Shown here: positions 3,983-44,428 of the stretch, in pieces | How positions within the stretch are numbered: the stretch's first letter is position 1 | How the letters are laid out: each line of letters begins with the position of its first letter | DNA from: an uncultured Alistipes sp. | GTDB lineage: Bacteria; Bacteroidota; Bacteroidia; Bacteroidales; Rikenellaceae | DNA length: 64,000 nucleotides | Direction of reading: 5' to 3' | Assembly (NCBI GenBank): GCA_949283205.1 | Contig: CASDSD010000037.1 | Location: 124,001 to 188,000 of the forward strand | Position numbers and translations under genes: made by a program | The notes under the pieces: model-generated | The model's input: the letters and a program-made list of their open reading frames with translations, nothing else | The model's database searches: none | Told to the model about the DNA's origin: nothing

Positions 3983-5173
3983 TCAGTCGTTGGGGTATGC
4001 GGCGATGAAGACGTTGCGGCGGCGCAGCTCCTCCTGTATGTTGTGCAGGGCGCCGAGCGATACGCGTCCGACGACATACTTGTAGCTCTCCGACGAATAC
4101 TTTTCGCTTATCGACTCGAAGGGAACCAGTGCGAGATCTTCATTGTCCGTATAACGGTAATATACGCGGAAGAGGTGGTCGTTGGTGAACTCCGGCAGCT
4201 GTGAGTCGTTGCGTTTCTTGTACTCGTATCGGTAGTCGTAGAGGCATGCCGTGATGTCGCTCAATACGGCCGAGCCGGTGGGGTAGCCGCCGGCGCCGCG
4301 GCCGAACATGAACTGCTTGTCGTAGAAGAGGCCCTTGATCACCACGCCGTTGAACTCGTCCTCGACGCTGTATATGTACTTGTTGCGCGATATTAGCTGC
4401 GGCATTACGCACATGATGAGACGGTTGCCGGCGATTTTCTCGACGTGTGCCACGAGCTTGAAACGGCGCTCCTTCTCGTTTGCGAAGCGTATGTCGTCGT
4501 CGTTCATGTTCGAGATGCCGTATGTGAATATCTCCTCGGGGGCCACATAGAGTCCGAAGGCGTGTACGGTGATTATGATGAGCTTGAAGAGCGAGTCCCA
4601 GCCGTCGATGTCGAGCGTGGGGTTGCTCTCGGCAAACCCGAGGTCCTGCGCCAGCTTGAGAGCGTCGGCATAGGACATCTTCTCGTTGAAGATCTTCGAG
4701 AGGATGAAGTTCGACGAGCCGTTCAGGATACCCTTCACCGAGGTGAGCAGGTCGTTGTCGTAATACTCCTCGAGGTTGCGGATGACGGGGATGCTGCCGC
4801 AGGCCGAGGCGTCGTAGAGCAGCGCCACGTTGTGCTTTGCCTGCAGGCCGATAAGCTCCTCTATATGGTATGCGAGCATCTTCTTGTTGCCCGAGACCAC
4901 CGGCAGCCCCGACTGCAGGGCGCGCTTGACGATGGTATAGGCCGCATCGGCATCGTCGATAAGCTCGACGATGAAGTTGATGCCGGGGTCGTTGAATATG
5001 TCGTCGGCCTTGTCGGTGAAGTCGGCCTGGACGGAGCGCTGTTTGGTGATATCGCGCACGCAGATGCGCTTTATCTCGACGTTCTTGTTGCCTATGCGTT
5101 GGAGTACGTCATATAGGCCGCGGCCGACGGTTCCGAAACCGAAGAGTCCGATGTTGAGTTTTTTGCCGTTCAT
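3983..5173 (-). CDS. hom: Homoserine dehydrogenase
   Basis: 396 residues. It reduces L-aspartate-4-semialdehyde to homoserine, the branch point to threonine and methionine. The N-terminal Rossmann motif GFGTVGRG (about 11-18) binds NAD(P). The homoserine dehydrogenase catalytic core runs to about 320 and includes the substrate-site stretch around KGILNGSSNFIL. There is no fused aspartokinase. The C-terminal tail (about 320-396) is short and not an obvious ACT domain. It is the last gene of a minus-strand unit metY-metX-hom, 18 bp after metX, so here it supplies homoserine for O-acetylation. Two hairpins follow the stop codon. Confidence 0.93.
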   Translation of the reverse strand: MNGKKLNIGLFGFGTVGRGLYDVLQRIGNKNVEIKRICVRDITKQRSVQADFTDKADDIFNDPGINFIVELIDDADAAYTIVKRALQSGLPVVSGNKKMLAYHIEELIGLQAKHNVALLYDASACGSIPVIRNLEEYYDNDLLTSVKGILNGSSNFILSKIFNEKMSYADALKLAQDLGFAESNPTLDIDGWDSLFKLIIITVHAFGLYVAPEEIFTYGISNMNDDDIRFANEKERRFKLVAHVEKIAGNRLIMCVMPQLISRNKYIYSVEDEFNGVVIKGLFYDKQFMFGRGAGGYPTGSAVLSDITACLYDYRYEYKKRNDSQLPEFTNDHLFRVYYRYTDNEDLALVPFESISEKYSSESYKYVVGRVSLGALHNIQEELRRRNVFIAAYPND

Positions 5174-5191: not shown

Positions 5192-6211
5192 TTATTTGCG
5201 GTTCATGAATTTCGTTATTATGTCGTTGAGCTGTTCGTGCTCGACCAGAAAGCCGTCATGCCCGAAGTCCGAGTCTATGATGTGATACTCCACGTCGGGT
5301 ATGTTCTCCACGAGAATGTTGTGGTCCGACGGCGGGAAGAGTATGTCGGAACTGATGGCCACCACCAGCGAACGGGTGCGTATTCCCGCCAGCACATCCT
5401 CCGTGCGGCCGCGGCCGCGCCCCAGGTTGTGCGAGTCGACGGCCTGCGAAAGCCTGTAGTACGAGTAGGCGTTGAAGCGGCGGCGCAGCTTCTCGCCCTG
5501 ATATCGCTGGTATGAGAGTACCCGCCTCTCGAATGACGCCTCGTCGGGGTCGGCATCCTCCTGTGTCTTGTCGTATGCCTTGCCGCCGCGGTAGCTTATG
5601 AGGGCTATGCTGCGCGCCACGGCCATGCCGTCGAGACCCGCCTCGGCCGACCTCTCTCCGAAGGTGCGGTCGCACTCTATGGCCATGCGCTGCGACTCGT
5701 TGAAGGCCGACGCCCACGGTTTGGTGCGGGGCGTGGTGGCGATGAAGGCGGCGCGGCGTGCGAAGTCGGGATACATGACGCACCACTCGAGACACTGGAA
5801 CCCGCCTATAGAGCTGCCTATGAGCAGTTCGACGTGGTCGATGCCGAGGTGCTCGGCCAGCAGCATGTGGCAGCGCACCATGTCGCGTATGGTCACCTTG
5901 GGGAAATCGCCGTACCACGGCTCTCCCGTTGCGGGGTTTACGGTGAGCGGTCCCGTCGTACCGTAGTGCGAGCCGAGGAAGTTGGCGCAGACGGTGAAGT
6001 AGAGGTCGGGGTCGAGGAACTTGCCCCGCTCGACCGTGTGCGGCCACCAGTCGGCGACGTCCGAGTTGGCCGTCAGGGCGTGGCATACCCACACGACGTT
6101 GCTGCGGTCGGCGTTCATCTGCCCGTAGGTGTCGTAGGCGATGGTTACCGAAGGCAGCGTGACGCCGCTCTCGAGCGTGAAAGGGTGGTCGTATGTGTAA
6201 TATCGGGCCAT
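5192..6211 (-). CDS. metX: Homoserine O-acetyltransferase
   Basis: 339 residues, alpha/beta-hydrolase fold. It transfers an acetyl group from acetyl-CoA to homoserine, the first committed step to methionine. The nucleophile elbow is GSSIGG with Ser134. Asp289 (SSDILFPP) and His318 (DFGHDGF) complete the triad. Its start lies 1 bp beyond the metY stop codon, suggesting translational coupling. Some MetX-like enzymes prefer succinyl-CoA, and sequence alone does not fully settle the acyl donor. The adjacent O-acetylhomoserine sulfhydrylase gene supports acetyl. Confidence 0.92.
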   Translation of the reverse strand: MARYYTYDHPFTLESGVTLPSVTIAYDTYGQMNADRSNVVWVCHALTANSDVADWWPHTVERGKFLDPDLYFTVCANFLGSHYGTTGPLTVNPATGEPWYGDFPKVTIRDMVRCHMLLAEHLGIDHVELLIGSSIGGFQCLEWCVMYPDFARRAAFIATTPRTKPWASAFNESQRMAIECDRTFGERSAEAGLDGMAVARSIALISYRGGKAYDKTQEDADPDEASFERRVLSYQRYQGEKLRRRFNAYSYYRLSQAVDSHNLGRGRGRTEDVLAGIRTRSLVVAISSDILFPPSDHNILVENIPDVEYHIIDSDFGHDGFLVEHEQLNDIITKFMNRK

Positions 6212-6212
6212 C

Positions 6213-7496
6213 CTATCGGGCTTTAGCGAATGCCTGTTCGAAATCGTCGATTATGTCCTCGACATTCTCCAGTCCGAGCGATATGCGCAGCAGCGTGGGG
6301 GTGATGCCCGCAGCCTTGAGGTCGGCGTCGCTTAGCTGCTTGTGTGTCGTCGAGGCGGGGTGTGTCACCACGGTGATCGAGTCGCCGATCATGGTCATGT
6401 TGCCGGCCAGCTTGAGGGCCTCGACGAAGCGTACCGTCGAGTCGAGCGATCCCTTCAGCTCGATGGTGAAGACGCTCGAGGCGCCGTAACGGTAATATTT
6501 CTGTGCGTTGGCGTGGCTGGGGTGCGTGTCGAAGCCTATGTAGCTCACGCGCTCCACCTGCGGGTGGTTGCGGCAGTACTCGGCCAGACGGCGTGCCGAC
6601 TCCACCTCGTGCTTCACGCGCAGCGAGAGGGTCTCCAGGCCTATGAGCATGAGATATGCGTCGAAGGGCGAGGGGCAGCAGCCGAAGTCGCGAAGCCCGT
6701 CCACGCGGCACTTGACCACGAAGGCGGCCTTGCCGAAGGCCTTGTACAGGTTCAGGCCGTGGTATCCCTCCGACGGGCCGTCGATCTGGGGGAACTTGCC
6801 GTTGCCCCAGTCGTAGTTGCCGCCGTCGACGATGATGCCGCCCATGGCGGTGCCGTGGCCGTTGATCCACTTGGTGGCCGAGTCCACGACGATGTTGGCG
6901 CCCCACTCGAAGGGGTTGCAGAGGAAGCCTGCGGCCCCGAAGGTGTTGTCTATCACCAGGGGTACGTCGCGGCGCCTGGCCAGCGCCCCGAGAGCCTCCA
7001 GGTCGGGCACGTCGCATGTTGGGTTACCCATGCTCTCGGCATATATCATCTTGGTGCGGTCGTCGATGAGCTCCTCGAACGCCTCGGGTGACTCGCTGCT
7101 GGCTATGCGGCAGTCGATGCCCAGCTTGCGCAGCGATATGCGGAACTGGTTGTAGGTGCCGCCGTAGAGGAACGGCGAGGCGACGATGTTGTCTCCCTCC
7201 TGGGCGAGCGCCGTCACCGTGACGAGTATGGCAGACATTCCCGACGATACGCCCAGGGCGCCGACAGCGCCGTAGAGGGCTGCGATGCGCTCCTCGTATG
7301 CCGAGGTGGTCGGGTTCTGGAGTCGGGTGTATATGTTGCCGCCCTCGCTCAGCTCGAAGAGGCGTGCCGCATAATCGCAACTCTTGAAATGGTATGCGGC
7401 GGTGGGGTATATGGCTATTCCGCGTGAGCCGGTGTGATCTACATGGTATCCTCCGTGGATCTGGAGGGTCTCGAAACGAAGTTTGTTGTCGGACAT
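6213..7496 (-). CDS. metY: O-acetylhomoserine aminocarboxypropyltransferase (sulfhydrylase)
   Basis: 427 residues, Cys/Met-metabolism PLP enzyme family. It converts O-acetylhomoserine and sulfide (or methanethiol) to homocysteine (or methionine). The PLP lysine is Lys209 in DSATKWINGHG. YGGTYNQF and the IDNTFGAAG stretch are family signatures. It is the first gene of metY-metX-hom. The roughly 200-nt 5' leader from the promoter at 7701-7732 contains a Met-rich short ORF (7596-7679), so regulation by methionine supply is likely. The start at 7496 gives the standard N-terminus (MSDNKLRFETLQIHGGY). Confidence 0.93.
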   Translation of the reverse strand: MSDNKLRFETLQIHGGYHVDHTGSRGIAIYPTAAYHFKSCDYAARLFELSEGGNIYTRLQNPTTSAYEERIAALYGAVGALGVSSGMSAILVTVTALAQEGDNIVASPFLYGGTYNQFRISLRKLGIDCRIASSESPEAFEELIDDRTKMIYAESMGNPTCDVPDLEALGALARRRDVPLVIDNTFGAAGFLCNPFEWGANIVVDSATKWINGHGTAMGGIIVDGGNYDWGNGKFPQIDGPSEGYHGLNLYKAFGKAAFVVKCRVDGLRDFGCCPSPFDAYLMLIGLETLSLRVKHEVESARRLAEYCRNHPQVERVSYIGFDTHPSHANAQKYYRYGASSVFTIELKGSLDSTVRFVEALKLAGNMTMIGDSITVVTHPASTTHKQLSDADLKAAGITPTLLRISLGLENVEDIIDDFEQAFAKAR

Positions 7497-7580
7497 GATA
7501 TTTCTATGGTATAATGTTGACGGATAAAAAATTGTTGGGATGGTTCGCGTCTGTGACGCGCGGCGGTGCGTGGCCGCCTG

Positions 7581-7610
7581 AAAAAGATCGAGTGCCTAAC
7601 GGCACATTCG
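7581..7610 (-). promoter_or_regulatory. Hairpin with U-tract at the end of the metY leader ORF (candidate attenuator)
   Basis: In the metY leader RNA the sequence GTGCC-GTTA-GGCAC (7592-7605) forms a 5-bp hairpin. It is extended by CGA/TCG across a 2-nt bulge and followed by ATCTTTTT (U-run at 7581-7585). The leader ORF stop codon lies in its 5' arm and loop. It could be a weak terminator controlled by ribosome position. Two further short stems follow before metY (GGCGG/CCGCC at 7562-7578, CGCGTC/GACGCG at 7546-7560). The mechanism is inferred. Confidence 0.35.
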
Positions 7611-7679
7611 CATTGAACGCCGCGACATACGGCGCATACCGAATATGAAAGACGAGATATTTTCTGTGAGTTCGGTCAT
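7596..7679 (-). CDS. Met-rich leader peptide of the metY operon (27 aa)
   Basis: An 84-nt ORF starts about 15 nt after the predicted transcription start and ends 99 nt before metY. The encoded peptide begins MTELTENISSFIFG and ends GMRRMSRRSMRMCR. Four of its five Met codons, plus a Cys codon, fall in the last 13 codons. Placement ahead of a methionine-biosynthesis operon and the Met clustering are what one expects of a leader peptide sensing charged Met-tRNA. I know of no described family matching it. Arg codons are also enriched, so high GC may contribute. Confidence 0.5.
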   Translation of the reverse strand: MTELTENISSFIFGMRRMSRRSMRMCR

Positions 7680-7700
7680 GTGCGATTCTTTATCTTTTCG

Positions 7701-7732
7701 CAAAGATAGGAATTTTTTTCAAGAAACGTAAA
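7701..7732 (-). promoter_or_regulatory. Bacteroidetes-type promoter for metY-metX-hom
   Basis: Read on the minus strand, TATCTTTG (7701-7708) fits the TAnnTTTG -7 box exactly. A TTTA -33-like element lies 20 nt upstream (7729-7732). The predicted start is near 7694. Confidence 0.6.
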
Positions 7733-42987: not shown

Positions 42988-43000
42988 CGGCGACATTCGA

Positions 43001-43052
43001 TGTGGAAGGATTTGGACTGCTTGCAACCACGAAAAAAATGCTAAACCAGCAA
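43001..43052 (+). promoter_or_regulatory. SAM-II-like aptamer candidate in the metK leader
   Basis: TGTGG (43001-43005) can pair with CCACG (43027-43031). The loop contains GATTT and ends TTGCAA. Then come seven As and TGCTAAA (43039-43045). The order GATTT, TTGCAA, stem, A-run, GCTAAA matches the conserved islands of the SAM-II pseudoknot riboswitch as I remember them. The element begins at the predicted 5' end of the transcript of a SAM synthetase gene. The pairing is short, and the pseudoknot was not confirmed by covariation. A 14-codon ORF (43000-43044) overlaps it as an alternative. Confidence 0.42.
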
Positions 43053-43120
43053 TGTTTCTATTCAACGACAGTCTCGTCTTCCATACGTTTAACGGTTTAA
43101 CTTTATAAACTTTTAATTGT

Positions 43121-44428
43121 ATGGCAAATTATCTGTTTACTTCGGAATCGGTCTCGGAAGGGCATCCCGACAAGGTGTCGGACCAGATTTCGGATGCAAT
43201 CCTCGATGAATTTCTGCGTCACGACCCCCAGTCGAAGGTGGCGTGCGAGACGCTCTGCACAACGGGCCTGGTGGTAGTGGCCGGTGAGGTCCGTTCGGAG
43301 GCATATGTCGATATACAGAGCGTCGTGCGCCGCGTTATCGACCGTATAGGATACAACCGCAGCGAGTACCAGTTCGATGCCGCTTCGTGCGGCATACTCT
43401 CGGCGATCCACGAGCAGTCGGCCGATATCAATCAGGGTGTCGTGCGAGAGGATGCCGAGGAGCAGGGTGCGGGCGACCAGGGCATAATGTTCGGATATGC
43501 CTGCAACGAAACCCGCGAGTATATGCCCGCAACGCTGATTCTCTCGCATGTAATCCTCAAGGAGCTGGCCGTAATACGCCGCGAGGGCACCGTGATGCCC
43601 TATCTGCGTCCCGATGCCAAGAGCCAGGTGACGATGGAGTACGACAGCGCAACGCACAAGCCCGTGCGCGTGCATACCATCGTGGTCTCTACGCAGCACG
43701 ACGAGTTCGTCAAGGCCGGCAACGGCCTGACGGAGAAGGAGGCCGAGCGCAAGATGCAGGAGCGTATCCGCGAGGATGTGCGTACGATCCTCATCCCGCG
43801 TGTGAAGGCCCGTCTGCAGCGTGCGAACGACTGCTTGGCCGACCTTATCGGCGACGACTACATACTGCATGTAAATCCCACGGGCAAGTTCGTCATCGGC
43901 GGCCCCCACGGAGATACCGGCGTCACGGGCCGAAAGATTATAGTCGACTCGTACGGCGGCCGCGGCGCGCACGGCGGCGGCGCCTTCTCGGGCAAGGACT
44001 CGTCGAAGGTGGACCGCTCGGCTGCTTATGCGGCGCGTTACATCGCCAAGAACATGGTTGCGGCCGGTGTGGCCGACCAGATGCTTGTGCAGTTGAGCTA
44101 CGCCATAGGCATAGCACAGCCCCTGTCGATATATGTCGACACCTACGGGTCGAAGCGCCCTGCGGCGCTGGAGGGCATGTCCGACGGTGAGATCGCCGAG
44201 CATATAGGCCGACTGTTCGATCTGCGTCCCGCGTCGATCGTGCGCAAGTTCGGTCTCAAGAACCCCATCTTCGAGGCGACGGCCTCGTACGGCCACTTCG
44301 GCAACCGCCCCTACACCAAGAGCGTCAAGGTGTGGGAGAACGGCCGCGAGACGGAGCGCGAGATCGAGTTCTTCGGCTGGGAGCGCCTCGATGCCGTGGA
44401 GAGCATAAAGAGCGAGTTCGGACTGTAG
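43121..44428 (+). CDS. metK: S-adenosylmethionine synthetase
   Basis: 435 residues. It makes SAM from methionine and [22 protein letters not shown] near the N-terminus binds ATP and metal. [12 protein letters not shown] and [19 protein letters not shown] are the two PROSITE-type signatures. It is somewhat longer than the common 380-400 residues, through insertions of the type seen in Bacteroidetes MetK. It is alone in its transcription unit, with its own leader and terminator. Confidence 0.96.

Follow-up and report, generated by a model that had tools for sequence, protein, structure and literature searches.

Methionine control in Bacteroidota, a phylum dominant in the gut, is usually framed in terms of SAM riboswitches. 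What is sensed by a short methionine-rich open reading frame (ORF) that precedes the metY-metX-hom operon of an uncultured Alistipes sp.? The locus lies in a stretch of 64,000 nucleotides (assembly GCA_949283205.1, contig CASDSD010000037.1, positions 124,001 to 188,000; hereafter the window, numbered from its first letter) and comprises the following features:

7701 to 7708, minus strand: -7 promoter box TATCTTTG, assigned from its sequence and of the Bacteroidetes type
7596 to 7679, minus strand: leader ORF of 27 codons, MTELTENISSFIFGMRRMSRRSMRMCR, with ATG at 7679-7677 and TAG at 7598-7596
6213 to 7496, minus strand: metY, O-acetylhomoserine aminocarboxypropyltransferase, first gene of the operon (TIGR01326, above cut-off)
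5192 to 6211, minus strand: metX-like homoserine O-acetyltransferase (TIGR01392, E 1e-100, below the curated cut-off)
3983 to 5173, minus strand: hom, homoserine dehydrogenase (NF004976, above cut-off)

The genes are thus ordered metY-metX-hom, with metY starting at 7496, 3' of the leader. An earlier note on this DNA had described an ORF of 27 codons with four Met codons and one Cys codon among the last 13, and exactly this is seen on the minus strand, with Met at codons 15, 18, 23 and 25 and Cys at codon 26. The promoter was judged by the -7/-33 consensus of the Bacteroidetes. The -7 box is spaced 21 nt from the leader ATG, TTTA at 7732-7729 (minus strand) is a weak candidate for the -33 box, and a TAnnTTTG box is found 5' of the leader in many relatives as well. 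Neither SAM-I (RF00162) nor any other Rfam family, the T-box included, gave a match at E values up to 5 between 7300 and 7900. Elsewhere in the window, a SAM-II riboswitch (42996-43054, plus strand, 56.9 bits) is located about 70 nt 5' of an ORF starting near 43122, which by eye resembles metK. This genome therefore seems to sense SAM there, and charged tRNA at another methionine gene.

To compare metY upstream regions, we used the genomes of relatives and named genome contigs. Among 51 distinct loci with a metY identity of at least 65%, 17 carry a leader of the window's kind (type A), nine have a Met-rich leader of another kind (type B) and 25 have neither, a split that is the analyst's reading of the upstream regions; in many of the 25 leaderless loci metY apparently resides within another operon. 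A covariance model, R1, was built from the two hairpins H1 and H2 that accompany the leader. With it, 72 of the 250 genomes searched in the family gave a match at E <= 0.01, the window's own among them and G061 and G107 only weakly. A spread of R1 outside the family was considered and rejected: among 295 genomes of the order there were two matches, the own genome and one weak one, and the H1-H2 element is nearly restricted to the family. The set of elements analyzed below unites stored and fetched R1 matches with the first 17 elements, 87 entries being reduced to 74 distinct ones and finally to 72. Left out were L202 (degenerate) and L203 (chance-like), and nine weak R1 matches in G107 and one in G061 are likewise outside the set. 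That the own genome carries the element twice was also dismissed: ATGCGNATGTGC matches four times, and the two matches examined are the leader itself and a site in C28 inside a long ORF.

The Met-Arg-Met-Cys (MRMC) end of the leader is present in all 72 distinct elements (the window's own counted), and CGA encodes the Arg ahead of the last Met in 72/72 type A leaders; both invariances are partly by construction, as the first 17 elements were chosen with CGAATGTGCC and R1 favours the same string. The stop codon directly follows the codon after MRMC in 71/72, the leader of L201 continuing four codons further. Within the 12 codons before MRMC, ATG occurs 163 times in frame as compared to three times and never in the other two frames (n = 72, related species among them and thus non-independent samples), and it is through this conservation that the ORF stands well above chance. 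The closest relatives L124, L126 and L127 keep the frame and their residues drift, and in each of the 30 loci examined with tblastn metY adjoins the element. Alignment of the relatives thus bears out what the earlier note had suggested as a check, namely that the hairpin persists along with the ORF and its in-frame Met codons, and that the remainder drifts. As far as sequences can tell, the ORF, the in-frame Met codons, the MRMC end, H1 and H2 are conserved jointly beside metY, and the ORF very likely is a Met/Cys leader-peptide sensor of metYX-hom.

The end of the leader and the RNA behind it are organized as follows:

7602 to 7613, minus strand: control codons AUG-CGA-AUG-UGC (Met-Arg-Met-Cys), conserved, with CGA at 7610-7608
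7592 to 7605, minus strand: hairpin H1, GUGCC-GUUA-GGCAC, its 5' arm formed by the last codons and the stop codon at the loop
7581 to 7591, minus strand: linker UCGAUCUUUUU, U-rich and G-poor, as judged from the sequence and from the composition of 72 sequences
7562 to 7578, minus strand: hairpin H2, GGCGG-CCACGCA-CCGCC, a covarying stem with YACG in the loop
7546 to 7560, minus strand: hairpin H3, CGCGUC-ACA-GACGCG, found only in part of the clade

Of the leader stop codon, two bases fall within the H1 loop; the third opens the 3' arm. TCGATCTTTTT directly follows H1 (7591-7581, minus strand), and over the 72 sequences the linker consists of 49% T and 6% G. A terminator scan of the window alone returned one site as compared to a mean of 0.9 in shuffles, which places the hairpin by itself at chance level there; the fold of the 224-nt leader has a z-score of -2.5, with equally low values in 4/200 shuffles. 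H1 is paired in 71/71 distinct rows, a G-U variant included, and is kept in L201 despite the lost stop codon, and as it measures 5 bp with nearly invariant arms, covariation cannot prove it. H2 exhibits changes on both sides at all seven pairs, a count matched by 110/500 shuffles. Its covariation score is 0.419 as compared to 0.178 upon shuffling (reached in 0/500) in an alignment fitted to the model, in which the score amounts to 0.04-0.12 when the stem is slid, and a free MAFFT alignment of 17 sequences yielded 0.346 versus 0.179 shuffled. YACG is found in the H2 stretch of 55/72 elements (7573-7567 in the window) though the stem varies freely. H2 is under selection, candidate roles being a pause hairpin or a binding site. 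Inspected by eye, neither the H1 loop nor the AUGCGAAUG stretch offers the H2 loop a convincing pairing partner.

Met/Cys-rich leaders are also encountered in distant Bacteroidota. Among 52 distant metY upstream regions, which are the best matches of one search, 31 contain an ORF with at least four Met/Cys codons in its last 14; the reverse strand gave 1 such case and shuffles 0.46. Less selected samples gave lower figures: 3/17 in the other families of the order (L147, L156, L161) and 15/50 in a phylum sample, where metY starts were unlocated in 15/50 loci and leader positions are approximate there. The usual distant leader ends with MCMCCCC or RMRMCCC. At gathering score, no SAM-I or other Rfam match was obtained in 11 type A loci (the own included), eight type B loci and L161; SAM-I riboswitches were detected in 19/20 and 17/20 of the distant loci scanned, in 4/17 stretches from the order and in further loci. 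Riboswitch end points were used for 54 loci (53 SAM-I, one SAM-I/IV), of which 43 have a candidate leader when the score threshold is lowered to 3 and eleven have none. With the leader start taken as the first in-frame ATG past the aptamer, the aptamer ends 3-11 nt before the leader ATG in 39/43 of these loci, and in 35/38 by the analyst's count when a leader score of at least 4 is demanded, and the distance from aptamer to metY is 179-387 nt. This close spacing to the leader ATG is most simply read as control of leader translation by SAM. L256 and L281 show the opposite arrangement, a Met/Cys leader with a terminator coming first, followed by SAM-I with its own terminator-like hairpin.

In 5/34 distant leaders (L060, L096, L104, L109 and L110) a perfect stem of at least 5 bp encloses the stop codon in its loop, as compared to 0.40 in a control in which the 15 bases after the leader were shuffled. 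In L060, CUUUUUUU immediately follows the stop-codon hairpin and the riboswitch adjoins the leader; it is non-adjacent in L096 and L109. Two further observations were made by eye: the ORF of L088 reads through a hairpin of the stop-in-loop kind, and in L094, L083, L100 and L075 a CAGCAACA-type stretch 3' of the Cys-codon run may pair with the UGUUGCUG codons.

The CGA codon before the last Met deserves its own comparison. In the window's long ORFs, CGA accounts for 259/1458 Arg codons and for 2/29 of those preceding Met. A fairer test than the invariance of MRMC and CGA in the 72 elements is the contrast with the remaining Arg codons of these leader ORFs and with the distant leaders. Among the other Arg codons in the preceding 12 codons, CGA is used once in 52 cases in type A leaders. 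In the distant leaders it represents 16/18 Arg codons before Met (13/14 and 3/4 in two samples) versus 13/60 Arg codons elsewhere (Fisher p 4e-7, uncorrected for kinship). Among 30 tRNA matches read of 40 in an assembly that is 92% complete, no Arg anticodon tcg was present; the Arg anticodons seen are acg (twice), ccg and tct. Following the inosine pairing rule for CGA decoding, this repertoire suggests that CGA is probably decoded via inosine pairing. For the his leader of Salmonella it is reported that CGA makes translation slower and read-through higher (PMC4046918), and the CGA-AUG pair may tune stalling here.

The explanation that we favour, and regard as probable, is that the ORF encodes a leader peptide sensing the supply of methionine, together with cysteine, for metY-metX-hom. 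If Met-tRNA or Cys-tRNA ran short, the ribosome would slow down or stall on the terminal AUG-CGA-AUG-UGC codons, where CGA before the last Met may slow it further and sharpen the response. The stalled ribosome would occupy the 5' arm of H1, so that H1 could not form and RNA polymerase would continue into metY. When methionine is ample, the ribosome would run as far as the stop codon at the H1 loop and depart, allowing H1 to fold before the U-rich linker. The transcript would then stop early, either at H1 acting as a weak intrinsic terminator or via Rho further downstream. Several points count against this explanation: most type A members show no convincing terminator at H1, the 5 bp of H1 are too constant for covariation to prove it, a stall on one of the earlier Met codons would leave H1 uncovered by the ribosome, the proposed mechanism does not account for H2, and 25/51 distinct close metY loci are devoid of such a leader.

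Which step ends the transcript is where the first rival enters. Attenuation could depend on Rho, which would load on C-rich, G-poor RNA past H2, with H1 and H2 framing the site. Indeed, C exceeds G after the element, with fractions of 0.30/0.14, 0.26/0.06 and 0.22/0.11 at +60 to +90 (n = 72), and the Mycobacterium cys leaders without terminators pose the same riddle and have elicited the same suggestion, according to an excerpt of PMC1262725. The excess of C past H2 makes such a role of Rho possible, but the bias is modest in an RNA that is A-rich, the figures are raw base fractions, and we consider this alternative rather unlikely.

A classical four-region attenuator, with H1 as intrinsic terminator and an antiterminator involving 7576-7570, is the design that the earlier note had in mind. 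In its favour, the window, L126 and L127 carry UCGAUCUUUUU after H1 and are scored terminator-like. Type B leaders, which belong to a sister lineage (for example ...MMMVMCNRVRRV), come closer to it: a strong terminator, AAUCCGGC...GUCGGAUUUUUU, follows the leader in 8/9 loci in one scan (L044 was missed) and in 8/8 in a second scan, L051 being cut by a contig end and uncounted, and by eye the leader end GCCGGGUG is pairable with the 5' arm of the terminator in 9/9, a textbook layout. Even there, with the ribosome stalled, the antiterminator is the lowest-energy fold in only 2/9 loci (L037 and L050). Of the type A leaders, 7/72 have a terminator-like site in the stretch from the element to +130 (the weak candidate of the window and those of L126 and L127 among them) and 65/72 lack one, and the second scan scored 2/17. 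At least five T in an 8-nt window after H1 are found in 31/72 and at least six in 6/72, and the T-run is broken in the close relative L124. With terminator-like sites rare and clean T-runs few, H1 is at best a weak terminator. The hairpin with U-tract claimed previously is seen in the window, with UCGAUCUUUUU after it, but a clean U-tract is uncommon in relatives. The proposed antiterminator has to be given up: CGGCCAC is located at 7576-7570 as claimed but pairs with GTGCCG only via a bulged C, the pairing is not conserved, and its 3' partner belongs to the stem of H2. In the window's clade no mutually exclusive antiterminator was found; H2 covaries instead. Attenuation by Met-tRNA as such is in keeping with the conserved Met codons, the adjacent metY and the type B terminator; its antiterminator and its clean U-tract did not hold up. 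Taken as a whole, the four-region design is quite improbable for the window.

An equally doubtful candidate is arrest by the nascent peptide, in which the MRMCR end would stall the ribosome and the tunnel would sense Met or SAM instead of tRNA charging. That MRMC is invariant in the 72 elements and the remainder drifts would suit this idea. However, the additional Met codons at shifting positions favour sensing of codons, the leaders of other lineages end in a run of Cys codons, and the preference for CGA is stronger than the Arg residue alone would require. Translational control, with the leader structure hiding the metY start region, appears very unlikely. Leaders outside types A and B mostly come without a terminator-like site, which would fit; 14/49 have one, for instance L264-L266 (from a family of the same class). 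However, the predicted openness of the metY start averages 0.52 with H1 covered and 0.53 with H1 free (17 loci), and as this prediction is unchanged by the state of H1, hiding of the metY start was rejected. In L264 and L161, two units of Met/Cys leader plus terminator are arranged in tandem 5' of metY. A chance ORF, or a general conserved non-coding RNA, is scarcely credible, for although the statistics from a single window are weak, the frame-specific excess of ATG and the shuffle and reverse-strand controls contradict it.

The favoured reading, a leader peptide responding to Met and Cys supply, has relatives among published systems. The attenuators of trp, his, thr and leu likewise consist of a short ORF rich in codons for the product with hairpins behind it, and type B and some other Bacteroidota leaders share the strong terminator with them. 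In contrast, the window's leader employs Met/Cys as control residues, its clade is devoid of a conserved terminator/antiterminator and the leader stop codon is placed at the hairpin loop. According to the excerpt of a 2013 survey, Rfam attenuators comprised only His, Leu, Thr and Trp (PMC3766115), and a 2010 comparative survey of attenuators is cited in PMC4833913. The Mycobacterium cys leaders, in the excerpt of a 2005 survey (PMC1262725), also have runs of Cys codons near the stop and no obvious terminator; they belong to another phylum, other genes and another RNA, whereas the present leader is dominated by Met codons and comes with two conserved hairpins. The uORFC-8-2 ahead of cysS in Rhodobacterales equally combines structured RNA with an upstream ORF containing conserved Cys codons, but there the Cys codons are two in tandem, an intrinsic terminator is present, and gene and clade are different (PMC8632094). 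In Mycobacterium tuberculosis, Mbox-pe20 (PMC12810186) and B12-ppe2 (PMC11260477) represent riboswitches acting on a short upstream ORF, a likeness suggested by the SAM-I/leader pairs of other Bacteroidota; the abstracts do not describe these upstream ORFs as amino-acid sensors, and the window's leader has no riboswitch.

Within the phylum, a transcriptome study of Flavobacterium psychrophilum describes strong clues that amino-acid operons are attenuated by leader peptides (PMC9723704). Phylum and general mechanism are the same there; genes and residues are left unspecified in the text consulted, and metY may be among the operons meant. For Bacteroides thetaiotaomicron, long 5' UTRs with short ORFs that recall leader peptides have been mentioned (PMC7366714). 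The view that such control is little described in this phylum was fair, then, but it is not undescribed. Already known are leader-peptide attenuation in a flavobacterium (PMC9723704) and terminator-less Cys leaders in Actinobacteria (PMC1262725). In the literature titles and abstract openings listed, no Met/Cys leader of metY in Bacteroidota was found, and an earlier prediction is possible. Beyond the earlier note go the Cys co-signal, H2, the CGA-AUG pair and the riboswitch link in other Bacteroidota.

Tentatively, and with somewhat more doubt than confidence, all of this may be read together as one Met/Cys leader family at many Bacteroidota metY operons that is wired in three ways: as a leader with a terminator, as the terminator-poor H1-H2 form, in which the ribosome would mask the stop-codon hairpin, and as a leader under control of SAM-I. 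The target of the riboswitch would then be the leader start codon, and SAM and charged Cys/Met-tRNA would be sensed together. The CGA-AUG pair, with CGA probably read by inosine, would act as a built-in brake that tunes stalling.

For methionine control in this phylum, the data point to a second input at metY, which is tRNA charging. Where the leader is directly under a riboswitch, as in some lineages, this would be a two-signal RNA circuit. The CGA-AUG pair offers a testable case of codon-pair tuning in a natural sensor, and the window's clade provides an attenuator that seemingly works without the usual pair of terminator and antiterminator.
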